Source of the DNA: a virus
Length of the DNA stretch: 28,718 nucleotides
Reading direction: 5' to 3' (one strand)
Virus record (IMG/VR): IMGVR_UViG_3300031566_005444
Span: 1-28,718 of that record
The translations under genes were made by a program, and so were the position numbers. The notes under the pieces are model-generated. The model saw only the letters and a program-made list of their open reading frames with translations. It did no database searches and was not told where the DNA came from. Shown in pieces: positions 4,007 to 28,384 of this stretch; within the stretch, counting starts at the first letter, position 1; every line of letters starts with the position of its first letter.

Positions 4007-4951
4007 TTAGACGCTGTTAATGTGGATAATGTGGCACTCACCGTCACCTGTGTAATCCCAGATTTTTGCGAAGTTAAGGATGCCGTACCACGCAACACCC
4101 TTGCTTCGCCCGTAGTCCCCGGGAATCTTGGCACGTATCTCCTCCGGCAAGGCTATAGCCTCCATACATGCGTCCGCGCCGAACATTACGGCCTCACCGT
4201 AGGTGCTTCCGCCACGTGCGTTACTCAAAAAGTTCGTTTCCTCGATACATCTTACGCTTTCAATCCTTCCGACCTCGCCTGAAAACAGCCTTTCCGGGTC
4301 GCCGTATTTGGCTGCATCCTGCCATGCGGAATGATTCTTAATACCTCTTAAAGCGTTGACTGAAGCAATCATCACGTAGTTCTCGCCGTCATATTTCGGG
4401 ATATTGAGAACCTTTAGTTTGTCAACACACTCTCTGAGATGGTACATATCGACGGTGACTGCCGAGGTAGTTGTTCCCTGCGTAGCATCTGCGGTAAGGG
4501 TCTGGAATGAACCCGCCGAAGACGCCGTTAGGCAGGTGTACTTGAGCTGGCTCAATACAAATTGCCCGGCAACCGCAGAATCAAGTACCTTCGACTGGTC
4601 ATTTCTCAAGGCGACGGTAATGATGTTGTCAACGTCAAACTCAGCCAGAGTTTCCAACTTTCCAGTGAACGGAACTGAATTTCCAAATTCGGTTACTTGA
4701 ATTGTCCCGGTTTGAATCGTTACCTGCGTTTCCGGCATTGTATTGGTCTCTACGAGAGTCCCACCGGCTGTAGCCACATTCGATATTTTATCGAAGAAAA
4801 CTAAATCGTTCTTGTTCTTCCCAAGAGCTTCCTTGATATTGCAGAACTGTCTGAACTTCTGAAGGGGCTGAGCTGCGTGCCGTACCGTTCTCGACAGCTT
4901 CCGATTACCAAGATAGCCACCAAGGGAACTGGTTACCCATAACTGTCCCAT
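4007..4951 (-). CDS. Major capsid protein, N4-gp56 family
   Basis: A 314-residue protein matching the N4-gp56 family of HK97-fold major capsid proteins in length and pattern. Typical signs are the central VTEFGNSVPFTGKLE region, the helix with ALRNDQSKVLDSAVAGQF, and the conserved VDMYHLRECVDKLKVLNIPKYDGE stretch followed by the NHSAWQDAAKYGDPERLFSGEVG block. The product forms the icosahedral shell. The start follows AAAGGAG eight nt upstream. The scaffold gene is immediately upstream, as expected. No protease-type maturation domain is seen. Confidence 0.92.
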   Translation of the reverse strand: MGQLWVTSSLGGYLGNRKLSRTVRHAAQPLQKFRQFCNIKEALGKNKNDLVFFDKISNVATAGGTLVETNTMPETQVTIQTGTIQVTEFGNSVPFTGKLETLAEFDVDNIITVALRNDQSKVLDSAVAGQFVLSQLKYTCLTASSAGSFQTLTADATQGTTTSAVTVDMYHLRECVDKLKVLNIPKYDGENYVMIASVNALRGIKNHSAWQDAAKYGDPERLFSGEVGRIESVRCIEETNFLSNARGGSTYGEAVMFGADACMEAIALPEEIRAKIPGDYGRSKGVAWYGILNFAKIWDYTGDGECHIIHINSV

Positions 4952-6914: not shown

Positions 6915-7162
6915 TTTCTGCCTTCCTTTTTTGGATTATATAACTCATTAAATTTATTATCGCTTTCAGCAAATACATCAAAGCATTTATCACCCCCTAA
7001 ATCCTTCTTGCCAAAGTTCGGCGAGCATCTCATGTGCATTTCTACCCAAATACATACTTGTTCTGGAAACCATATCCCGTGCCCTAATGTTGGATAGTAT
7101 TTAGCCAACATTTTTGTTTCGCCACAATTTATGCACTTGAAATACAGCCGGTCGTTTGCTAT
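6833..7162 (-). CDS. Zinc-ribbon hypothetical protein, no canonical start codon
   Basis: From residue 8 onward the frame reads LYFKCINCGETKMLA, then HMRCSPNFGKKDLGGDKCFDV: a CxxC pair plus two further cysteines, typical of a zinc ribbon. The upstream part of the open frame lies inside the portal gene and looks non-coding. AAGGAG ends 7 nt before an ATA codon at 7162 (another ATA at 7165), exactly where ATG is expected after the portal stop. I place the start there; ATG7111 would cut off the first CxxC. The last 82 nt overlap the next gene. Confidence 0.5.
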   Translation of the reverse strand: MANDRLYFKCINCGETKMLAKYYPTLGHGIWFPEQVCIWVEMHMRCSPNFGKKDLGGDKCFDVFAESDNKFNELYNPKKEGRKWQRERTYRMIPTLTRILRRARHQSQP

Positions 7163-8886
7163 TATGCAGCTCCTTGTATCTTTCTGTAAAGATTTATCTG
7201 TTCTTGCGGCGGCAGGTTTCGCACATCCTGTCTGGCCTTCTCTTCGGCATCCGCAGCAGTCCCACCATCTTCTTCCGGCTCTTTGTAAACATCCTGTAAG
7301 TTGGTCTGGACTAATGCCTTTTTCCATAAGAGCGGGATATCCGTCATACTGGCAAGCATTTCGTTTCCAAGGGCCGCTGCTAACATTGTGTTGATATTCT
7401 GTCTAAGTTCCTGCTGTTGCAGCATCAATGTCAGGCCGCCGACCTTAAATAAGTATTTGCCTTCCAGTTCCTTGAATAAGTCGGTGAACTGGACTATGAG
7501 ATTATAGCTGTCTTCTATAAGTTTTGCAATGAAATTCCGCTCCAGCCGGCGGGCAATAACGTCAAAGAACCCGTGACTTTCGGCAGTCTTTTTCTCGATT
7601 TCACCTAACGTCTGAGCGCGCTTGGACGGCAGGGCTTCCACGTATTCGGTGATTGCGGTGGCCTGGCGCAGCTCGCTGTCAATTACTTTTATAGCCTCTA
7701 TCGACTCTCGGCCTACAGGGGTGGTATTGACCTCTTGAACAACCCTCTCGTTTGTATTCTTCAGAAAGACTTTACCTGGATAAGTCCGGCGGGCTTTCTG
7801 GGGGTCGACCAAGCCCATCTTGTTCATCTCGAACATCTTGTTCACCGTGAAATTCAAGTTGTCGATATAGAGATTCAAAAGGTTATTGAGGCTGTACTGT
7901 AAAGGCACCGCGCCTTCTACTAATGATGTTCCCGCTATACCCCTGTGGGGGTAAACGATAGGGATAGACAGTCTGAAGGGCGGCAACTCATCATCAAACG
8001 GGTTATCGTGATGCCGGATTAGCTCGCATCCATTGGCTACCATCAAAAGCTGGTTGCGCAAAACCTTCTTGCCGTCTTTACTGACAATATCGCCCCAAAA
8101 CTCCAGTATTTCAACTTCATCCGGTGGCGAATAATCGCTTAATCCCTTACGTTGTCTCTCTTTTGCTCTTGTTTCCTGCTTTGTGGCGTAAGCGGATTCG
8201 AGCTTATCAACCGCCTTTTCTATGTAAAGGTCAGGGTCCTTCCCCACTTTATCAAGAAGGTCTGACAATATCTCGACTTTCCGCTCAATCATATATCCTG
8301 GGCGTTTTTGGGTGAATGGCTTATAGGCCGGGTCTATAGACAGATTCAATACATCTGTATTATCATAGGTGCATTTCGGATCACTCTCGTCCCACCGCCT
8401 TTTAATTGCCCCCAATCCCAATAGAAATGAACTTATCGAGTTTTCGCCCAGACATTCGGCGAAGTTCGACTTTTCCAGATGACTTTTCAGCTTCATTTCT
8501 ACTTTATGGGCTTTTTCCCTCATTTCCTCGTGTTCGTCTTCCTTGTATTCCTCCTCGTCTATCTCGACCTTAAATAGCGTAGAGGTTTGAAGTACGGCCC
8601 GCTCGACCAGTGCCGCCGCCCTTATCGTGTGCATAAATATCTTCGGGCTGAAGGCTTTGGATTGCCATTCCTTCTTGCCTGTGTAGTCCTGCTTGTTTTG
8701 ATAGAGCTGCCACAACTCCTCCCATTTCTTCCTTCGCTCTGTTGTGGCTTTGTCAGCCTGCTTTTTTTTGTCGATTACATAATCAACCAGATATTGAGCG
8801 TCATCAAACTCATCGGGAGTTTCGTCCTTCTTGTCAATTTGTGGCGATTCCGTCTCTTTCTCTTTTTTCTTCTTTCGCTTTGCCAT
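7162..8886 (-). CDS. Portal protein (podovirus-like)
   Basis: A 574-residue protein between terminase and scaffold, the usual portal position. A highly charged N-terminus (residues 1-40) is followed by a portal-like core: WEELWQLYQNKQDY, SFLLGLGAIKRRWDE, a VEILEFWGDI strand, the PFRLSIPIVYPHRGIAGTS turn followed by a QYSLNNLLNLYIDN helix, and a Gln/Ala-rich C-terminal helix. It would form the dodecameric ring at the DNA-packaging vertex and bind the terminase motor. Its ATG shares one base with the upstream stop (TAATG). The match is to short-tailed-phage portals by length and order, not to a named gene. Confidence 0.85.
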   Translation of the reverse strand: MAKRKKKKEKETESPQIDKKDETPDEFDDAQYLVDYVIDKKKQADKATTERRKKWEELWQLYQNKQDYTGKKEWQSKAFSPKIFMHTIRAAALVERAVLQTSTLFKVEIDEEEYKEDEHEEMREKAHKVEMKLKSHLEKSNFAECLGENSISSFLLGLGAIKRRWDESDPKCTYDNTDVLNLSIDPAYKPFTQKRPGYMIERKVEILSDLLDKVGKDPDLYIEKAVDKLESAYATKQETRAKERQRKGLSDYSPPDEVEILEFWGDIVSKDGKKVLRNQLLMVANGCELIRHHDNPFDDELPPFRLSIPIVYPHRGIAGTSLVEGAVPLQYSLNNLLNLYIDNLNFTVNKMFEMNKMGLVDPQKARRTYPGKVFLKNTNERVVQEVNTTPVGRESIEAIKVIDSELRQATAITEYVEALPSKRAQTLGEIEKKTAESHGFFDVIARRLERNFIAKLIEDSYNLIVQFTDLFKELEGKYLFKVGGLTLMLQQQELRQNINTMLAAALGNEMLASMTDIPLLWKKALVQTNLQDVYKEPEEDGGTAADAEEKARQDVRNLPPQEQINLYRKIQGAA

Positions 8887-9101
8887 TAGTCTTCTTTTAA
8901 GCTGTCTGCAATGATATTACAGGTTTGAGCATGACGATATAATTCGTATCGGAGTATTTCTTTCTTAATTTTAAGACATTCAGCTATGGCTGCATCTGAA
9001 GCTGTATTGACAAGTTTCTCTATATTATCCATACAGTCGTCAACTTTAGCGTTGCTTTCTTCAAGTTGTTGTTTAATTGGGCCAAAATCTATTTTTTCCA
9101 T
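8886..9101 (-). CDS. Small helical hypothetical protein between terminase and portal
   Basis: Seventy-one residues, almost all helix-forming (FGPIKQQLEESNAKVDDCMDN), with three cysteines. It is locked between large terminase and portal by TAATG overlaps at both ends, which strongly supports expression in fixed ratio with the packaging machine. Possibly a packaging or head-completion accessory; no family recognised. Confidence 0.75.
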   Translation of the reverse strand: MEKIDFGPIKQQLEESNAKVDDCMDNIEKLVNTASDAAIAECLKIKKEILRYELYRHAQTCNIIADSLKED

Positions 9102-10465
9102 TAGAAATTACTCTTTACCGTATATGATGTTGCTAATTCCATGTCTTCATCTCTTTTGCGCTTGCGGCCCCATTCGTCAATTTCCTCAGTTTCAGGTTGC
9201 ACAAATTGCAGAGAGTATATGCCGATAACATAAGCATCGCCCCTGTCCGGGCTTCGGCCTAATCTGGCTTTCGTTTTTAACTTGTTTTCTAATAATATCT
9301 TACGGAATCGACCTGCCGGGTTGATTTTGACCGATGACAAGTCTTGACGCAATAATAAGTCTTTTGGGTATCCAACTTCGTGATTTTGCATCTGTTCCAT
9401 TACATACCAATATGCCTCCGCTCTCTTGTTGGCAAACTTTTTGTGATTAAGGGCTTTTTCTCGAAAGTCGCACGGTAACGCATTAAGTTTCAAGCTGTTA
9501 AGTTCGCTTAAAACTCCCGTTCCTACGCCGATAGGGTCAACTGCCACATTAAAAGTATCGTGTTTTTTACACATTAAATTACATTCGTGGGCGATTTTCT
9601 TCGTGTCCCGTTCCCTAAATACCTTCTCGTCTTTAATGACCTCGTTCTCAAAATAGTATATGACGCACTCATCCCCTTCGACCGAGGCGTCCGGGTCGCA
9701 GCTAACCAGCTTCTTTAGGTGGCCTTTCGTCTGCTTATAAAATCTCAATTCGTCAAGCAGTCTCGATGTGATTAGGGTGAGGTCCTCATCTGTAATATCG
9801 GCACATTCAAACTCCTGCTCATACATCCAGGGCGGCATCTCTCTCTGTGCCTTGAGCAGTTCGTCCGGCGGTATTAACCCTGATTCGCTCGCCCTCAAAA
9901 GAGACCTGTGCCAATCAGTCCAGTTTTCACTTGACCGCCACATGTCCGTTGCGTGGTTCTCGCCTTTAGGGGTATAGGCGAATATCGCCCACCTGCTTAC
10001 ATCTTCTGCAACAATCGGCCTGAATATCTCGGTCCACACCTGACGTTTCATTAAAGCCCATTCATCAAACCCTACTCCGTTGGCATCTATCCCCCTCAAA
10101 CTGTCAGGGTCATCCCCGCCTTTAATTGGCAGTATTGAGCCATTCGGGAATTTTATGTAGAGTTCGCTTTCGTTAGCAACCCAGGGAACTTCTCTCTTGT
10201 CTGGTAGATAAGAAAACAGCATATTTGGGTCACGCCAGATTATCGACTTCGCCTGCCTGTATGTTGGGCCGACATAGGGATAAACATGGTTCTTGTTTCG
10301 CAAACATTCCCTGATTAACAGGTTAAGAATAAGCGTAGTCTTCCGCGCCCGCCGATGCCACTTCAATTCAAAGAAGCGTTTACGGTGAGAGTCAAACTCT
10401 TTTAGAACGCTTATTTGAGCGGGATGCAGCCCGCTTATGAACTTTTCGTTTGGTATCTGTACCAT
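9101..10465 (-). CDS. terL: Terminase large subunit (packaging ATPase and nuclease)
   Basis: The motor that drives DNA into the head and cuts it. ATPase part: a deviant Walker A KWHRRARKTT at ~36-45, Walker B GVGFDEWAL at ~131-139 (D135 E136), and coupling motif YTPKG at ~165-169. Nuclease part (RNase H fold): SCDPD at ~257 (D258), VAVDP at ~308-312 (D311) and RSPDRGDAY at ~405-413 (D408, D411). The usual glycines of the P-loop are replaced by Arg/Ala, but Lys43 and Thr44 remain. ATG10465 is taken as start; a TTG lies one codon earlier. No good ribosome site is visible, so coupling to the overlapping small-subunit gene is likely. Confidence 0.92.
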   Translation of the reverse strand: MVQIPNEKFISGLHPAQISVLKEFDSHRKRFFELKWHRRARKTTLILNLLIRECLRNKNHVYPYVGPTYRQAKSIIWRDPNMLFSYLPDKREVPWVANESELYIKFPNGSILPIKGGDDPDSLRGIDANGVGFDEWALMKRQVWTEIFRPIVAEDVSRWAIFAYTPKGENHATDMWRSSENWTDWHRSLLRASESGLIPPDELLKAQREMPPWMYEQEFECADITDEDLTLITSRLLDELRFYKQTKGHLKKLVSCDPDASVEGDECVIYYFENEVIKDEKVFRERDTKKIAHECNLMCKKHDTFNVAVDPIGVGTGVLSELNSLKLNALPCDFREKALNHKKFANKRAEAYWYVMEQMQNHEVGYPKDLLLRQDLSSVKINPAGRFRKILLENKLKTKARLGRSPDRGDAYVIGIYSLQFVQPETEEIDEWGRKRKRDEDMELATSYTVKSNF

Positions 10466-14042: not shown

Positions 14043-14205
14043 AGCCTAAATCGAAATGAATCCCCCATTCCCAATAAGACATAGCCCCGCACCGGGGGCA
14101 CTGTTTGCTTTCCTTTGCCTGTGCTATTAAAGCGGGATTTGTGCATGATATTCTAAATTCTGCGTTTCTATAAATAGCCCACTTGGTTACATTTTTGATT
14201 GACAT
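13987..14205 (-). CDS. Small zinc-ribbon protein
   Basis: Seventy-two residues. QCPRCGAMSYWEWG near residue 35 and AVCFNCGWSC at the very end form two CxxC knuckles about 28 residues apart, a complete four-Cys zinc ribbon. It overlaps the end of the HTH gene upstream (38 nt) and the start of the coiled-coil gene downstream. In this position, first genes of the late operon, it may be a transcription or assembly accessory; that is inference. Confidence 0.7.
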   Translation of the reverse strand: MSIKNVTKWAIYRNAEFRISCTNPALIAQAKESKQCPRCGAMSYWEWGIHFDLGYENGKFFGAVCFNCGWSC

Positions 14206-14353
14206 TTGGCTTTAGGCCTTTGTTTTCTGCCCTTTTTATACGCCGTGAAACAGCAGAACGGCTTATTTTTATGATTTCAGCGGCCTCTGCGTGCGTAAGT
14301 TCACAACATTTAACGAGATAAAGCGCGTAAACTTGTTTGGGAGTTAGTAACAT
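14168..14353 (-). CDS. HTH protein resembling sigma70 region 4
   Basis: Sixty-one residues. LTPKQVYALYLVKCCELTHAEAAEIIKISRSAVSRRIKRAENK is a full region-4/LuxR-type tri-helical HTH: the recognition helix is SRSAVSRRIKRA, preceded by the turn around EIIKIS. It has no other domain. Phage proteins of this shape near the start of late operons often control late transcription. It lies two genes downstream of the late promoter at 14657-14685, and could act on the palindrome inside that promoter or on the 26-bp sites at 14686 and 27545 (inference). It overlaps the HNH gene by 44 nt. Confidence 0.7.
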   Translation of the reverse strand: MLLTPKQVYALYLVKCCELTHAEAAEIIKISRSAVSRRIKRAENKGLKPNVNQKCNQVGYL

Positions 14354-14648
14354 AATCCTGTATTTCGGGGGGTATCCCGCCTACATAACGCCGCCAAAGT
14401 ATCAACACAGTACGCCACAATATGAGGTTACACCAATGAACTTTTTTTCGATGCTCAAAGGCGTGCCATAATAGGGATATACATTCGCCGTTATCTTCTT
14501 GGTATCGGAGTTCTGGAAATTCTGATTTGGGTCTTTTGTGGTGAGAATCAAGAAGCTCCTGGTCCATAACACCTGACCGCTGGCAAACGTAGCCAGCGTT
14601 CATCTTTATCAGTTGAGACCAGTCAGCATCCTTGCTTTGAGGCTTCAT
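14310..14648 (-). CDS. HNH nuclease-like protein, predicted leaderless
   Basis: A 112-residue protein with an HNH (beta-beta-alpha metal) pattern: WSQLIKMNAGYVCQRSG, then LDSHHKRPKSEFPELRYQEDNGECISLLWHAFEH. H36/H37, N53 and H62/H66 fit the metal and catalytic positions. The first CxxC half has a Ser in place of the second Cys. HNH proteins close to the terminase often assist packaging cuts. The ATG lies only 8 nt after the -10 TATAAT of the late promoter, with no room for a ribosome site, so translation is probably leaderless. It is the first gene of the late operon. Confidence 0.75.
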   Translation of the reverse strand: MKPQSKDADWSQLIKMNAGYVCQRSGVMDQELLDSHHKRPKSEFPELRYQEDNGECISLLWHAFEHRKKVHWCNLILWRTVLILWRRYVGGIPPEIQDYVTNSQTSLRALSR

Positions 14649-14656
14649 GGCCGCTT

Positions 14657-14685
14657 ATTATACCAGAAAAGCCGGTATTATGCAA
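14657..14685 (-). promoter_or_regulatory. Late promoter with internal palindrome
   Basis: Minus-strand -35 TTGCAT (14680-14685), 17-nt spacer and perfect -10 TATAAT (14657-14662). Inside it is an inverted repeat, ATACC (14660-14664) with GGTAT (14674-14678), covering the spacer and -10 edge, which looks like a repressor operator. Transcription would start at about 14648-14650, the ATG of the HNH gene. The 26-bp site at 14686-14711 directly touches the -35. Confidence 0.75.
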
Positions 14686-14711
14686 GTCCTAAAAACTTAA
14701 TGTCCAAACAC
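14686..14711 (+). promoter_or_regulatory. 26-bp bipartite regulatory site, copy 1
   Basis: GTCCTAAAAAC, four variable bases, then TGTCCAAACAC. The two halves are related as direct repeats (GTCC-A/T-AAA..C) 16 bp apart. The same site recurs inverted at 27545-27570, with identity at all 22 non-spacer positions. It lies exactly 20 bp upstream of the -35 of the rightward promoter and abuts the -35 of the leftward late promoter. Position -55 to -80 relative to the rightward start suggests an activator site, while contact with the late -35 could repress or activate that promoter. Confidence 0.8.
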
Positions 14712-14731
14712 AAATTTATTTTATTTTTTTC

Positions 14732-14759
14732 TTGACAGCTTTGAGTGTTTGACGATAAT
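14732..14759 (+). promoter_or_regulatory. Rightward promoter of the duplicated cassette
   Basis: TTGACA (14732-14737), 16 nt, GATAAT (14754-14759), preceded by a T/A-rich tract. Transcription is expected to start near 14766. The same architecture (site, 20-bp gap, TTGAC, GATAAT, 6 nt, ATG) recurs at 27524-27496 on the other strand, with a 17-nt spacer there. Confidence 0.8.
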
Positions 14760-14765
14760 AGAGGT

Positions 14766-14855
14766 ATGAACGTAGCGCATTCAATCAGGTTTACAGGCCC
14801 CAAAGTCTCACACTCCGCGCGCTGCGTTCTGTGGGATGGCGGGGCTTTTTTATGA
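14766..14855 (+). CDS. Predicted leaderless leader peptide, 29 residues
   Basis: ATG lies exactly 6 nt after the -10 hexamer, so it would be at or very near the 5' end of the RNA. The frame runs MNVAHSIRFTGPK... through the whole terminator hairpin and stops with TGA at 14853-14855, 9 nt before the next gene. A ribosome moving along it would melt the terminator, which suggests translation-dependent attenuation. A second copy of the arrangement exists at 27489-27343 with an unrelated peptide sequence. The peptide itself has no recognisable motif; no proof of translation can be seen. Confidence 0.5.
   Translation: MNVAHSIRFTGPKVSHSARCVLWDGGAFL
14768..14851 (+). ncRNA. Leader RNA with terminator and competing 5' arm (attenuator), copy 1
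   Basis: Terminator: GCCCC (14797-14801) with GGGGC (14841-14845) and TCTCACA (14806-14812) with TGTGGGA (14830-14836), then six U (14846-14851) ending just before the Shine-Dalgarno of the next gene. The extreme 5' segment GAACGTAGCGC (14768-14778) can pair over 11 bp (one G-U) with GCGCTGCGTTC (14819-14829), which lies in the terminator loop. The order is therefore A-B-A'-B'. With no linker between A' and B', full pairing of both stems is sterically unlikely, so the two folds should compete. Confidence 0.75.
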
Positions 14856-14864
14856 AGGGATAGA

Positions 14865-15062
14865 ATGATGAAACTTCAGCGACTAAAAAATAATGACTTG
14901 ATGATTATTGTGCCTTCCAGACAACAAGGCCGCTGGCGGCAGATTACAAGTGTTGCTTTAGACGCTATCGAAACTGCCCCATATCAAAGGTATCAAGATA
15001 AACGTATCAGCGAAGACCTTAGAATGTTGAGGAAAGAATTAGGTTGTAAATATAATACTTGA
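14865..15062 (+). CDS. Small basic protein, first gene of the rightward unit
   Basis: Sixty-five residues (MMKLQRLKNNDLMIIVPSR...), basic, no recognised domain; a short beta-like start and a helical end (ISEDLRMLRKELG). AGGGATAGA precedes two adjacent ATG codons; the same ribosome-site/start block recurs before the next gene at 15072. Only this gene, its neighbour and the leader peptide run rightward, under the cassette promoter and attenuator. Rightward position opposite the late promoter suggests a regulator or host-takeover protein, but that is inference. Confidence 0.65.
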   Translation: MMKLQRLKNNDLMIIVPSRQQGRWRQITSVALDAIETAPYQRYQDKRISEDLRMLRKELGCKYNT

Positions 15063-15071
15063 AAGGATAGA

Positions 15072-15368
15072 ATGATGATTAAGCAAAGAAAAATCTGGTA
15101 TCGTCGTTACAAAAAAGCAAGGCACTTCTGCCCAGCGCCTGGTTATAACTGCCCCAAAATTCCCTTGGGTGGCATCAATGCAAAAGGCCCAGATTACGAA
15201 ATGGTGCGAATCGTCAAATCTGAGGGTTGCAATTTGAGAAATCGGTGGGGCTTGATTAGTTGGGGTTTGAATTTCCCCCCTACAAAATGGCCGAAATTAA
15301 AACAAGTGTTAGCCTTCGACATTGACCGGCCTTCAAACAAATATGCAGAAATTCTGTTGGCTGTTTGA
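15072..15368 (+). CDS. Small hypothetical protein, second gene of the rightward unit
   Basis: Ninety-eight residues, basic N-terminus (KQRKIWYRRYKKARHFC), then CPAPGYNCPKIPLGG and a later Cys (EGCNLRNRW); ends FDIDRPSNKYAEILLAV. AAAGGATAGA precedes ATGATG, matching the block before the upstream gene. A GCCCC/GGGGC hairpin follows 10 nt after the stop. No family recognised. Confidence 0.65.
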   Translation: MMIKQRKIWYRRYKKARHFCPAPGYNCPKIPLGGINAKGPDYEMVRIVKSEGCNLRNRWGLISWGLNFPPTKWPKLKQVLAFDIDRPSNKYAEILLAV

Positions 15369-19155: not shown

Positions 19156-19174
19156 TGCATACTCTTAAACTTAA
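19153..19174 (-). repeat. 22-bp start-associated repeat (pair with 19600-19621)
   Basis: Identical 22 bp ending in the start codon (minus sense TTAAGTTTAAGAG...ATG) precede the methyltransferase (start 19155) and the XF1762-family gene (start 19602). The repeat carries the ribosome-site region and the ATG. Confidence 0.85.
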
Positions 19175-19602
19175 CGCTCGAAAAGTAACTTGCTCTCGGT
19201 TGGGTGTTCATCTAATCGGGGGCGGTTTTTGCGGTTCCATTTTCCGCCACCGCATTTTCCAATACATTTCCACCCCGCCGCCTTGACTGATGTTCCGGTC
19301 TCTGATTCGAGAATATATGTAATTGCTTTTTTGTAACCTAACGCCCGAGCTGCCCGCCAAGCCGCCGCATACAGCATTGAGCAGGCGTTTTTATAGCCGT
19401 TTGTGCAACATCGCGTAACTTCAACTGTCCAGCCGTCATCTAACATTCTCGCTACCGGCCTACCCGCAATAATCACCCCAACTATTTTATCCTCTACAGC
19501 ACAAGCAATTTGAAATATAGAGCCGACAGGGGGCTTGTGGTGGCGATGATGAGCCTTGACAAAAGCCTTAGCATCCTTCTGTTTTATTGGCACTAAGTGC
19601 AT
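19171..19602 (-). CDS. XF1762-family protein (GNAT-like)
   Basis: A 143-residue protein matching the XF1762 family: MHLVPIKQKDAKAFVKAHHRHH, then GVIIAGRPVARMLDDGWTVEVTRCC, NACSMLYAAAWRAARALGYKKAITYIL, and RPRLDEHPTESKLLFE at the end. The fold and the helix-strand order suggest an acetyltransferase-like (GNAT) enzyme, but no substrate is known. Frequent in phages and prophages. Its start codon lies in the same 22-bp repeat that precedes the methyltransferase. Confidence 0.88.
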   Translation of the reverse strand: MHLVPIKQKDAKAFVKAHHRHHKPPVGSIFQIACAVEDKIVGVIIAGRPVARMLDDGWTVEVTRCCTNGYKNACSMLYAAAWRAARALGYKKAITYILESETGTSVKAAGWKCIGKCGGGKWNRKNRPRLDEHPTESKLLFER

Positions 19603-20559: not shown

Positions 20560-21154
20560 CTTTTTTCCTTTCAAATTGTTGTCCGTAAAAATTTTTAAGT
20601 TCATCAATGGCGCTCATCGTGCCATCGGCTATTAGTTCGTTCTTGACTTCCTCCTTTAGCTGCTCTCTGGCGTTCTTTGTATCTTCGGGGTCCTTCCAGG
20701 TGGCCCCGAAAGTAGTTAAGAGAAATTGTTTAAGAGCGCGTGTGCCTGCTGTGTTGGCTGACCAATCGAGATTTCTGCCCATCCCTGAGCCGAAACCTAC
20801 CAGCCGGGCCCCTGTCTCCAAATCCTCAATGCAGAATGTTCCTAACAATAAGGGCATATTCCCGACTGCGATTGCTTTGGGTTGTATGTGCTCATCCACA
20901 TAGGGCCGAAAGATGAGTTTTTCCCGGGCGCATTGGTCAAGGTAGATTTCAAAGACGTACTGCGCCTCGGTGAACCTGAACATGACTTCCTTCGTATCCG
21001 GGTCAATACATTCTCCGGTCGGCTCTATCTGGGGCACACGCGCTCTTATGCGACTAATCTTTTTGAGTAACAATAATTTCGGATTGATTTTACGCTTTGG
21101 TGGTTTCGATTTTGGTTTGCTCTTGGCTGTTTTCTTGGCTTTTTTCTTTGCCAT
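20465..21154 (-). CDS. ERF/Sak-like single-strand annealing protein with Lys/Ala tail
   Basis: ATG21154 gives 229 residues. The first ~25 are a histone-H1-like basic tail (KKKAKKTAKSKPKSKPPKRK). The core (residues ~35-165) has the ERF-like pattern: strand pairs ending EIYLDQCAREKLIFRPYV, then LVGFGSGMGRNLDWSANTAGTRALKQFL, in which the short motif before the helix fits ERF/Sak-type annealing proteins. Such proteins pair complementary strands during phage recombination. The C-terminal ~30 residues lie over the next gene in another frame and are low-complexity. The tail repeats that of the gene upstream at nucleotide level. Confidence 0.6.
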   Translation of the reverse strand: MAKKKAKKTAKSKPKSKPPKRKINPKLLLLKKISRIRARVPQIEPTGECIDPDTKEVMFRFTEAQYVFEIYLDQCAREKLIFRPYVDEHIQPKAIAVGNMPLLLGTFCIEDLETGARLVGFGSGMGRNLDWSANTAGTRALKQFLLTTFGATWKDPEDTKNAREQLKEEVKNELIADGTMSAIDELKNFYGQQFERKKDDSQGKNPPDSRRPDSKKARTGKKRDNRRGK

Positions 21155-21392
21155 AATATCCCTTCTTTCTGAGGTGTTCTTGGTATTTACTGCCTTCAAA
21201 ATTTACTATCTCGTATTTGATTCCTCTCCTTCTCTGCGCCTCGCGCATTATCTGTAGCTTCTTTTCGTGCAGACCTACGGGACCTTTGGGTTTACGCTTT
21301 GATGGTTTTGATTTTGTTTTGCTCTTGGCTGTTTTCTTGGCTTTTTTCTTGGCTGTTTTCTTGGCTTTTTTCTTTGCTGTTTTCTTTTTCAT
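21090..21392 (-). CDS. Lys/Ala-rich histone-H1-like protein
   Basis: ATG21392 overlaps the upstream stop as ATGA; 100 residues. The first ~35 consist of repeated KKKAKKTAK units. Residues ~40-80 (GLHEKKLQIMREAQRRRGIKYEIVNFEGSKYQEHLRKKGY) look like a small folded domain. The last ~20 are the ERF-like gene's tail read in another frame, since the two genes overlap by 65 nt. Basic repeat tails of this kind bind nucleic acid non-specifically. The repeats are of equal wording at DNA level, pointing to slippage or recombination. Confidence 0.65.
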   Translation of the reverse strand: MKKKTAKKKAKKTAKKKAKKTAKSKTKSKPSKRKPKGPVGLHEKKLQIMREAQRRRGIKYEIVNFEGSKYQEHLRKKGYYGKEKSQENSQEQTKIETTKA

Positions 21393-26375: not shown

Positions 26376-26491
26376 TGGCGAGAACGGGCGGGATTTGAAC
26401 CCAGCTTGCCTATTCGCACCGCAGCGAGGCAAGCCTGCTGCGACCTTCGGCTTTTCAGGCCGACGCCCTACCTGACTGGGCTACCGTCCCC
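26376..26491 (-). tRNA. tRNA-Phe(GAA)-like gene with 37-nt insertion or giant variable arm
   Basis: Acceptor GGGACGG with CCGTTCT (7 bp; 8 if G26491-C26380 is added, then G and CCA), T8-A9, D stem GCCC/GGGC, anticodon stem TCGGC/GCCGA with loop CTGAAAA (anticodon at 26456-26454) and T loop TTCAAAT. Between variable loop and T loop lie 37 extra bases (26403-26439). Without them the T stem is a perfect GCGGG/CCCGC and the gene is canonical. The extra part can fold as GCTTGCC-T-CGC...GCG-AAT-A-GGCAAGC, an 11-bp helix. Insertion, unusual class-II-like arm and dead gene remain possible. Confidence 0.65.
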
Positions 26492-26535: not shown

Positions 26536-26607
26536 TAGCGGGGGCTGGATTCGAACCAGCGATTTCCAGGTTATGGGCCTGACGAGATACCACTTCTCTA
26601 CCCCGCA
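26536..26607 (-). tRNA. tRNA with CAU anticodon (Met, or Ile2)
   Basis: Cloverleaf: acceptor TGCGGGG with CCCCGCT, a U-U mismatch at 1-72 and six good pairs; D stem GAGA/TCTC; anticodon stem TCAGG/CCTGG with loop CCCATAA (anticodon 26575-26573); T arm GCTGG-TTCGAAT-CCAGC. CCA is not encoded. The unpaired 1-72 position recalls initiator tRNA, but the three G-C pairs of the initiator anticodon stem are not complete (A29-U41). With CAU it could be elongator Met or, after lysidine modification, Ile. Confidence 0.85.
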
Positions 26608-27136: not shown

Positions 27137-27346
27137 CTACTCAAGTTCTGTGATAGCTTCATCGCATTGTTTCTCGCGTTGTTCGTAACCATCGAGAATT
27201 TGTTGGCGGGTTTGGCCGGATTGCCCATACTCTTGATTCATTTCTTCGGGCGTGCAATTTCTAAAAGCCAATTTTGCTCGATAAAAGTCATCGCATCGGC
27301 GTTGGTTGATACAGTCAATAACGAATTTCTTTGTTTCTGTTCTCAT
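27137..27346 (-). CDS. First gene of the leftward early operon, hypothetical
   Basis: Sixty-nine residues: RTETKKFVIDCINQRRCDDFYRAKLAFRNC, PEEMNQEYGQSGQTRQQILDGYEQREKQCDEAITELE; helical and acidic at the end. GAGGTGA before the ATG directly follows the U run of the attenuator terminator, and the ATG overlaps the stop of the leader frame as ATGA. Its expression should therefore depend on read-through and perhaps on translation of the leader. No family recognised. Confidence 0.7.
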   Translation of the reverse strand: MRTETKKFVIDCINQRRCDDFYRAKLAFRNCTPEEMNQEYGQSGQTRQQILDGYEQREKQCDEAITELE

Positions 27347-27489
27347 CTTATCACCTCAAAAAAAAGTAGGGCAAAGCTCTGAACGACTATCAGGGAGAAA
27401 GAAGTGCAAAAACTTTGCCCTACAAAAAAACTGATTGCGCGAAATCCTCTACTCGATTGATTCATCTGAATAGCCCTGATAGTCTTCAT
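27343..27489 (-). CDS. Predicted leaderless leader peptide, 48 residues
   Basis: ATG27489 lies exactly 6 nt after the -10 hexamer, as in the rightward cassette. The frame (MKTIRAIQMNQSSRGFRA...) passes through the terminator and U run without a stop and ends with TGA overlapping the ATG of the first gene (ATGA). The sequence after residue ~20 is hydrophobic and Phe/Ser-rich because it reads the terminator. Translation to the end would disrupt the hairpin and couple to the next gene. Whether it is translated cannot be told from sequence. Confidence 0.45.
   Translation of the reverse strand: MKTIRAIQMNQSSRGFRAISFFVGQSFCTSFSLIVVQSFALLFFEVIR
27358..27484 (-). ncRNA. Leader RNA with terminator and competing 5' arm (attenuator), copy 2
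   Basis: Minus sense, in order: A GACTATCAGGG (27484-27474), B GTAGGGCAAAG (27423-27413), A' CCCTGATAGTC (27395-27385), B' CTTTGCCCTAC (27376-27366), then eight U (27365-27358). B-B' is a perfect 11-bp terminator stem. A-A' is a perfect 11-bp stem joining the RNA 5' end to the terminator loop. The interleaved order is the same as in 14768-14851, with different sequences and a longer A-B gap (50 nt). Confidence 0.82.
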
Positions 27490-27495
27490 ATTCAT

Positions 27496-27524
27496 ATTAT
27501 CGACAACTTATTGTGATTGGTCAA
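27496..27524 (-). promoter_or_regulatory. Leftward early promoter of the duplicated cassette
   Basis: TTGACC (27524-27519), 17 nt, GATAAT (27501-27496), with T/A-rich DNA upstream. Expected start near 27489. It matches the promoter at 14732-14759 in hexamers, in its 20-bp distance from the 26-bp site and in the 6-nt distance to the first ATG. Confidence 0.82.
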
Positions 27525-27544: not shown

Positions 27545-27570
27545 GTGTTTGGACAGATGGTTTTTAGGAC
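27545..27570 (-). promoter_or_regulatory. 26-bp bipartite regulatory site, copy 2
   Basis: In minus sense GTCCTAAAAAC, four bases (CATC), TGTCCAAACAC: all 22 specified positions equal copy 1 at 14686-14711. It lies 20 bp upstream of the -35. Unlike copy 1 it has no divergent promoter beside it, only the late terminator. Confidence 0.8.
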
Positions 27571-27587
27571 AAAGTCAAGAGGGGGAA

Positions 27588-27620
27588 AATGCCCCGAAAG
27601 CAAGGTTGAATCGGGGCATT
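27588..27620 (-). terminator. Strong terminator ending the late operon
   Basis: A perfect 10-bp stem AATGCCCCGA/TCGGGGCATT (27588-27597 with 27611-27620) with a 13-nt loop, followed in minus sense by UU and CCCCC, so U-poor but with four U including the stem end. It closes the gene run 28718-27632 and insulates the early promoter. Confidence 0.8.
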
Positions 27621-27631
27621 TGAAAGAGGTT

Positions 27632-28384
27632 TTATGCCATTGTTACGATACCGAGCTGTTTGGCGGCGGCGGTTTCAAATTCGTCCCGGTACGTTTTCGA
27701 GTAGGTAAGTTCTGAAAATCTCTTGCCGCTGCCCAGCTTCAGTAAGGTTTTCTTGCGCTCATCATAAGACCTTATGGCGAAAAGTGTCTGAAATTCTACC
27801 CTCAAATCCGGCCAGTTGTTTTCCTTTTCGGTGAACCCGCATAAAATCTCATAGGTTCTCTTGGCGCAGGCCAAAGCCCTTCGCCTGTTGTCTATTACTA
27901 TCCCTGTACGCAAGTCCGTCCATTCCGCACTTACCACATCGGGGACAACGCCCATATCGGCGTGGCCTATCGGCGGTTGGGGACTGCCGAGATACCACCA
28001 GGGGAAACATTCGTTTTCTTTTTCAAGCCAGCCGGTGAATCCCTGATGTGAATAGGTATCCTGGAAAGAGTGGAGCGCAATTCCCAATTCAAAGAAGTCC
28101 CCCGCCTCATCTATTAGCATCCTGGCTAACCGAGAATCGGGCGTTACAACACAAGTCTTTTCGAGATTGTCGCCCGGCAAGAAATGGAATGGGACCAAGA
28201 CCGTCCGCTGGATTTGACGGTCAGCCCAATTGCCCAATATGCCGGATTGGGTCTGGATGCCGTGTAGCCTGGCCTTCTTTAGTTCGTCTGTGTACTGATT
28301 AGCCCAGGCCACTATCAGCGGTTCTTCTATTCCGGCCTTGCAGGCCAGAACATCGGTAACGTGAAAGTGGAAGTCCTTTTGCAT
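27632..28384 (-). CDS. DUF6765-like protein (zinc phospholipase C / S1-P1 nuclease fold), candidate lysis enzyme
   Basis: A 250-residue protein starting MQKDFHFHVTDVLACKAG, with IALHSFQDTYSHQGF at 102-116 and IGHADMGVVPD at 139-149. H105-x3-D109-x3-H113 plus H6/H8 and H141 fit the zinc-ligand pattern of the phospholipase C/S1-P1 nuclease superfamily, to which DUF6765-type proteins are related. No signal peptide is seen, so release would need a holin. It follows a holin-like gene with TAATG overlap and is last in the late operon, the position where an endolysin is expected. The lysis role is inference. Confidence 0.65.
   Translation of the reverse strand: MQKDFHFHVTDVLACKAGIEEPLIVAWANQYTDELKKARLHGIQTQSGILGNWADRQIQRTVLVPFHFLPGDNLEKTCVVTPDSRLARMLIDEAGDFFELGIALHSFQDTYSHQGFTGWLEKENECFPWWYLGSPQPPIGHADMGVVPDVVSAEWTDLRTGIVIDNRRRALACAKRTYEILCGFTEKENNWPDLRVEFQTLFAIRSYDERKKTLLKLGSGKRFSELTYSKTYRDEFETAAAKQLGIVTMA

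Follow-up and report, generated by a model that had tools for sequence, protein, structure and literature searches.

The locus studied here raises the question of whether a phage leader RNA can itself decide if the genes behind it are transcribed. In the window (the whole stretch of DNA analysed, 28.7 kb of a tailed phage), an earlier note had described the same ordered elements twice, on opposite strands: a bipartite DNA site, a promoter, a leaderless reading frame and two interleaved RNA helices, A-A' and B-B'. Every one of these elements was found at its place and with the spacing claimed, at 14686-14851 (+) and 27570-27358 (-). Between promoter and first gene there is a terminator (stem plus U run) whose hairpin loop, ~90-130 bases into the RNA, is able to pair with the RNA's first bases. 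Because the same layout is found in four other phages with unrelated sequences, the leader is probably an undescribed means of deciding transcription of the genes behind it.

The phage and its genome

The window encodes a terminase large subunit (9101-10465), a head-tail adaptor (7162-8886) and a major head protein (4007-4951). An INPHARED search returned no near relative of the phage, the top two terminase matches having ~30% identity across most of the protein, and the best terminase match in a bacterial assembly (37% identical) was on a contig binned as Ca. Brocadiaceae. A second assembly (G001, 29,306 bp) matched both window ends at 99.8-99.9%, with 13.2 kb in between, and IMG/VR record 3300031565_000252 and the window overlap at both ends, with 13.2 kb outside the window. 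Given that the window and a second assembly overlap at both ends, we take the genome to be about 41.95 kb long and either permuted or circular. Almost every gene is on the leftward strand; the chief departure is a 0.5-kb rightward unit behind the first copy of the leader.

Several other features of the window were recorded. A tRNA-Met gene (26536-26607) is adjoined by a second tRNA-like gene (26380-26490, -; 111 nt) with a long variable region and an Rfam score of 46 bits; its anticodon loop, CUGAAAA, is perhaps that of a Ser-UGA tRNA, and ARAGORN reports the tRNA-Met only. An ORF at 19171-19602 (-) has a weak match, short of the cut-off (E 5e-4), to PF25680, the Mom family of DNA modification, and TTGGC/TTTTC-rich tandem repeats at 21084-21377 encode Lys/Ala-rich tails (AKKTAKKKAKK) in two adjoining leftward ORFs.

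Two leaders on opposite strands

In the rightward leader (copy 1), the bipartite site (GTCCTAAAAAC-N4-TGTCCAAACAC; 14686..14711, +) is followed by 20 bp of AT-rich DNA (14712..14731, +; 19/20 A/T), which may be UP-element-like, and by a predicted promoter, TTGACA-16-GATAAT (14732..14759, +; TTGACA at 14732-14737, GATAAT at 14754-14759). Six nucleotides separate GATAAT from an ATG at 14766, which is the predicted RNA start and opens a leader ORF of 29 aa (14766..14855, +) whose TGA stop lies directly behind the U run. Strand A (GAACGTAGCGC; 14768..14778, +) is complementary, with one G.U, to strand A' in the terminator loop (GCGCTGCGTTC; 14819..14829, +), and strand B (AGGCCCC, 14795..14801, +, then an inner TCTCACA) is matched by B' (14841-14847), which together with the U run occupies 14841..14851 (+). 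The rightward unit consists of only two small ORFs (14865-15368), one of 65 aa (14865..15062, +) with a Shine-Dalgarno-like AAGGG and one of 98 aa (15072..15368, +), and opposes the 3' end of the leftward operon.

The leftward leader (copy 2) repeats this order from its own bipartite site (27545..27570, -) through 20 bp of AT-rich DNA to TTGACC, the -35 of a predicted TTGACC-17-GATAAT promoter (27496..27524, -; TTGACC at 27524-27519, GATAAT at 27501-27496). Again 6 nt lie between GATAAT and an ATG, here at 27489, which is the predicted RNA start and begins a leader ORF of 48 aa (27343..27489, -); its stop overlaps, as ATGA, the start of the 69-aa ORF (27137..27346, -) that heads the leftward early-type operon. 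Strands A (GACTATCAGGG; 27474..27484, -) and A' (CCCTGATAGTC, in the terminator loop; 27385..27395, -) form a helix of 11 bp, or of 15 bp when UGAA/UUCA on the far side of a single bulged G is included, strand B (GTAGGGCAAAG) lies at 27413..27423 (-), and B' with the U run spans 27358..27376 (-; B' at 27376-27366, U run to 27358). The Shine-Dalgarno of the first gene comes right after the U run in both copies, as in most of the leaders described below. A promoter-independent scan for interleaved helices before a U run found no third A-B-A'-B' arrangement, either in the window or in the phage's other 13.2 kb. The leaders are identical in all three assemblies, so there is no covariation inside the phage.

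A terminator-like hairpin (AATGCCCCGA...TCGGGGCATTTT; 27585..27619, -), read by eye 3' of the gene for a DUF6765 protein (27632-28384, -; E 4e-38), sits between the upstream operon and copy 2; it is absent from the simple terminator scan, which took loops of 3-8 only. The DUF6765 gene is the last before this hairpin and copy 2, and a holin-like ORF lies ahead of it.

The upstream DNA site

Two occurrences of the bipartite site are present in the window and none in shuffled sequences, and the stretch from site to -35 is the longest inverted match in the window (51 nt, 84%). The GTCCTAAAAAC-N4-TGTCCAAACAC sequence forms a direct repeat (TGTCCTAA/TGTCCAAA) with a 16-bp distance between its units in copy 2, and the centre of the site lies ~67 bp 5' of the predicted RNA start. 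At copy 1, the site abuts the -35 of a divergent leftward predicted promoter (TTGCAT-17-TATAAT; 14657..14685, -); the late operon's first ORF begins with an ATG at 14648 (-), 8 nt past the -10 of this promoter. A phage regulator acting at the site might coordinate the two strands. One candidate is a 61-aa stand-alone sigma-70 region-4-like protein (14168-14353, -; above the Pfam cut-off), encoded near the site at the head of the late operon.

The earlier note had counted the site as part of the repeated element and proposed that the whole frees both early units, rightward and leftward, at the same time. This is supported in part: an attenuator-like leader does occur twice, but the rightward unit is just two small ORFs, and since A and A' differ completely between the copies, the RNA itself holds no link between them and only the upstream site could provide one. 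Exact and loosened site patterns matched this phage only among the viral contigs searched, and the site was not found in the GTDB genomes searched, in 40 relatives or at the other phages' leaders. As it is private to this phage in all searches, we treat the site as separate from the recurring RNA element.

Recurrence of the leader in other phages

Relatives were sampled as loci fetched as terminase relatives. A first search, which selects on both helices, compared 200 strong promoters with 1,000 shuffled controls, and eight scores exceeded those of all 1,000 shuffles: copies 1 and 2, L039, L124, L095, L109, L062 and L066. The last two are a near-identical GC-rich pair barely over the shuffle limit and were left out of the count. 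Because this search selects on A-A', a second, unselected test was run, which took strong promoters, then terminators with loops of 15-50 nt no more than 200 nt away, and compared how strongly (by pairing energy) the RNA 5' end binds the real loop and shuffled versions of it. Behind 328 strong promoters in the window and the terminase-relative loci there were 10 such long-loop terminators, and the loop was complementary to the RNA 5' end at p<=0.02 in 6 of the 10, where 0.2 would be expected; leaving out the window, it was so in 4 of 8. The binomial probability of this excess was 1e-8 (1e-5 minus the window's two), and the excess of long-loop terminators was also significant (Fisher 9e-4; 5e-3 minus the window). 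By comparison, a random set of 119 contigs fetched solely for a leaderless strong promoter had a long-loop terminator at 3 of 724 promoters and a complementary loop at none of the three.

The six complementary leaders are the same six that the both-helix search had picked, and four of them belong to other phages and have unrelated sequences (L039, L124, L095 and L109). Their stems being unrelated, the six are separate instances of one geometry and not copies. The earlier note's claim that interleaved pairing is kept despite unrelated stems thus gains backing from well beyond the two copies, and we are highly confident that the recurring pairing of 5' end and terminator loop is real. Since the stems differ completely and the geometry is kept, ordinary homology searches and covariance models, which leave out pseudoknots and need alignable sequence, miss the element; a geometry-based test finds it and is applicable to whole phage collections.

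The genomic positions of these leaders also bear comparison with those in the window. The L039 leader is divergent from terminase genes, as is copy 1, and the L124 leader stands directly behind a lysis-type module (endolysin read by eye) and ahead of a run of small genes, as does copy 2. The L109 leader is divergent from a gene weakly matching phage transcriptional regulators, and that of L095 lies within an early-type cluster with a ssDNA-binding protein and a YqaJ-like nuclease (by eye). Copy 2, L124 and L109 are at early-operon-like positions.

Pairing with the 5' end is not universal. The earlier note held that related phages keeping the terminator without A-A' would count against the element, and one relative, L049, does have a long-loop terminator without 5'-end pairing; the four other phages keep it. 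In L153, the loop of a long-loop terminator pairs further into the leader (p 0.0055) and not with the 5' end (p 0.43). No further clear member was found in a second terminase-based set (L126-L146), in GTDB terminase loci or among MCP-related E. coli and Vibrio phages, and many long relatives, which may lack either the leader or the right region, had no such leader at the thresholds used. Two of the random leaderless-promoter contigs gave scores near the shuffle maximum that were unconvincing on reading, and none appeared in the unselected test. Searches with the DUF6765 protein and with concatenated leader-flanking proteins recovered the same phage and contig L295 only, the latter with a weakly similar small protein and without such a leader, and INPHARED DNA searches with the L124 and L109 leaders gave nothing relevant.

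Leaderless start and leader reading frame

An ATG lies 4-6 nt past the -10, at the predicted RNA start, in 5 of the 6 leaders compared with 23 of 168 strong promoters of the group, and strand A overlaps or directly follows the AUG in five leaders. The leader ORF spans the terminator in copy 1, copy 2, L039 and L124. Leader frames were no longer open than shuffled sequence (Fisher 0.17), and no run of regulatory codons was found in the leader peptides. Translation of the leader is plausible. Leaderless genes are strikingly frequent in this phage group more generally: the ATG is exactly 6 nt past the -10 at 17 of 168 strong promoters, with examples in L023, L031, L043, L053, L087 and others.

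Predicted folding order

We folded the six leaders at each RNA length with nested (pseudoknot-free) models. In five of them (copy 1, copy 2, L039, L095 and L109) the probability of A-A' stayed at ~1 until B' was complete but for a few nucleotides, after which B-B' was preferred by ~3-8 kcal/mol in four of these five (copy 1, copy 2, L039 and L109); L095 remains in A-A' at equilibrium. In L124, A-A' was short-lived (0.79 at nt 53). For the full RNA, B-B' beat A-A' in five of the six, and forcing nt 1-16 to be single-stranded brought B-B' to 1.0 in all six. As modelled, this order is that expected of a kinetic antiterminator/terminator switch in which the 5' end would be the control point.

Direct-path barriers from A-A' to B-B' were 19-28 kcal/mol, values that are upper bounds because the paths are nested; barriers of the modelled size would be too high for crossing within seconds unless a pseudoknot intermediate helps. 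As A and B share no nucleotides, most leaders could hold the two helices at once in a pseudoknot, with B-B' formed on top of A-A', in which case the role of A-A' would be reversed.

Proposed mechanism and alternatives

We propose that a cis-acting, co-transcriptional attenuator heads early-type transcription units of these phages, with the promoter activity, terminator activity and early timing predicted from the DNA. Strand A, the first 11-16 nt of the RNA at or overlapping the leaderless AUG, would pair with A' in the loop of the terminator hairpin, and A-A', forming during synthesis of B', would act as a kinetic antiterminator of the terminator made by B-B' and the U run. Masking of the 5' end as A' emerges would shift the outcome to termination. 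The likeliest mask would be a ribosome held at the leaderless AUG; the same outcome is predicted if an antisense RNA or a protein covers the 5' end. Were a ribosome to continue translating as far as B, it would prevent B-B' and bring back read-through; the start codon would also be hidden by A-A' pairing. That the leader works as an attenuation switch of some kind we consider likely. The assignment of A-A' as antiterminator and of the ribosome as trigger is more tentative, falling somewhat short of an even chance, and we are slightly more cautious still about the complete proposal, in which a leaderless-start 5' end pairs with the terminator loop and ribosome occupancy in the first seconds decides downstream transcription.

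An unlikely but serious alternative is a pseudoknot-assisted terminator, in which A-A' forms first and holds B near B', promoting termination despite the 30-40-nt loop; a ribosome translating the leader from the leaderless AUG would then prevent both helices and cause read-through, and transcription would extend into the genes only if the nascent RNA were translated at once. The helices do share no nucleotides, as in H-type pseudoknots, loops of at least 30 nt are unusual for terminators and could need help, and the ORF spans the terminator in the four leaders named above. In L124, however, A abuts B, so that a complete A-A' helix rules out a complete B-B' stem, and in copy 1 the inner B' segment begins directly after A'; mutual exclusion is also favoured by nested folding, although such folding cannot represent pseudoknots. 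We think it improbable that the product is the terminated leader as such, a stable small RNA of ~86-132 nt with its 5' end shielded from decay in A-A'. It would then either act in trans or serve as a small leaderless mRNA, and read-through would be incidental. A strong promoter plus terminator would yield a discrete RNA, and in S. meliloti the trp attenuator RNA, rnTrpL, has a trans-acting role and may also be a leaderless mRNA (PMC7298713). Against this, a Shine-Dalgarno and gene start lie a few bases past the U run in most leaders, and the success of B-B' in five of six full RNAs under nested folding would leave the 5' end free.

Chance, meaning ordinary terminators behind strong promoters with fortuitous complementarity, is strongly disfavoured: terminators are common in phage intergenic DNA and the single-leader p-values reach just 0.0005-0.02, but there were six complementary loops in ten where 0.2 would be expected, four in the eight outside the window, and none in the random set. 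Least probable of all is antitermination of the HK022 put type, with a folded leader that contacts and modifies RNA polymerase and no involvement of helix choice. HK022 likewise has two RNA elements behind its two early promoters, but put RNAs share sequence and consist of two side-by-side stem-loops with no built-in terminator (PMC9378689), whereas the present sequences differ completely and have a U run behind B'.

If the switch operated by ribosome occupancy of the 5' end is true, early-type units would be gated by a self-contained RNA with no need for a phage protein. Occupancy of the 5' end would be set against the pace of transcription, giving a testable link between leaderless translation and termination, and the transcription machinery would directly read out leaderless initiation in several phages with unrelated sequences.

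Comparison with known systems

In Rfam 15, the leaders fell below the gathering threshold of every family, tRNA being the only family matched, and no phage element with such a layout was found in the open-access literature, outside which most subscription journals lie. That the structure recurs is well supported. Neither Rfam nor the open-access papers searched gave a description of a leader with pairing between its 5' end and its terminator loop.

H-type pseudoknot riboswitches and leaders such as preQ1-I are like the leaders described here in being short, lying close to a terminator and having strands in the order A-B-A'-B'. Unlike these, our leaders are without a conserved ligand-binding sequence, their stems differ completely from one another, and they have no Rfam match. 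In phages P1 and P7, the C4 antisense RNA, a trans-acting processed RNA, controls icd/ant through Rho-dependent termination. As proposed for our leaders, pairing of a phage RNA there hides a translation start and so changes premature termination, but here the pairing would be in cis and the terminator intrinsic.

The leaders resemble HK022 put (PMC9378689) in that, within one phage, RNA made from each of two early promoters would control read-through, with no phage protein apparently involved. The put stem-loops, however, are of related sequence, bind polymerase and act on distant terminators (PMC9378689), whereas here the terminator is within the element, the sequences are unrelated and side-by-side related stem-loops were not found.

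The earlier note's proposal of an undescribed system probably stands for the layout, but not for the leaderless leader-peptide attenuator as such, for which S. meliloti trpL is a precedent: its leader RNA begins at its ATG (PMC7298713). Mycobacterial polycysteine leaderless sORFs are likewise leader-peptide attenuators, according to work cited in PMC9031893. As in S. meliloti trpL (PMC7298713), the predicted RNA start here coincides with or adjoins the AUG of a short ORF, and a choice between termination and read-through would follow. Unlike the present phage leaders, in which no regulatory codon runs were seen, trpL and the mycobacterial Cys leaders serve bacterial amino-acid genes and contain such runs. 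The pairing logic also differs, as the 1-2, 2-3 and 3-4 helices of trp attenuators share strands, whereas A-A' and B-B' are interleaved without shared nucleotides.
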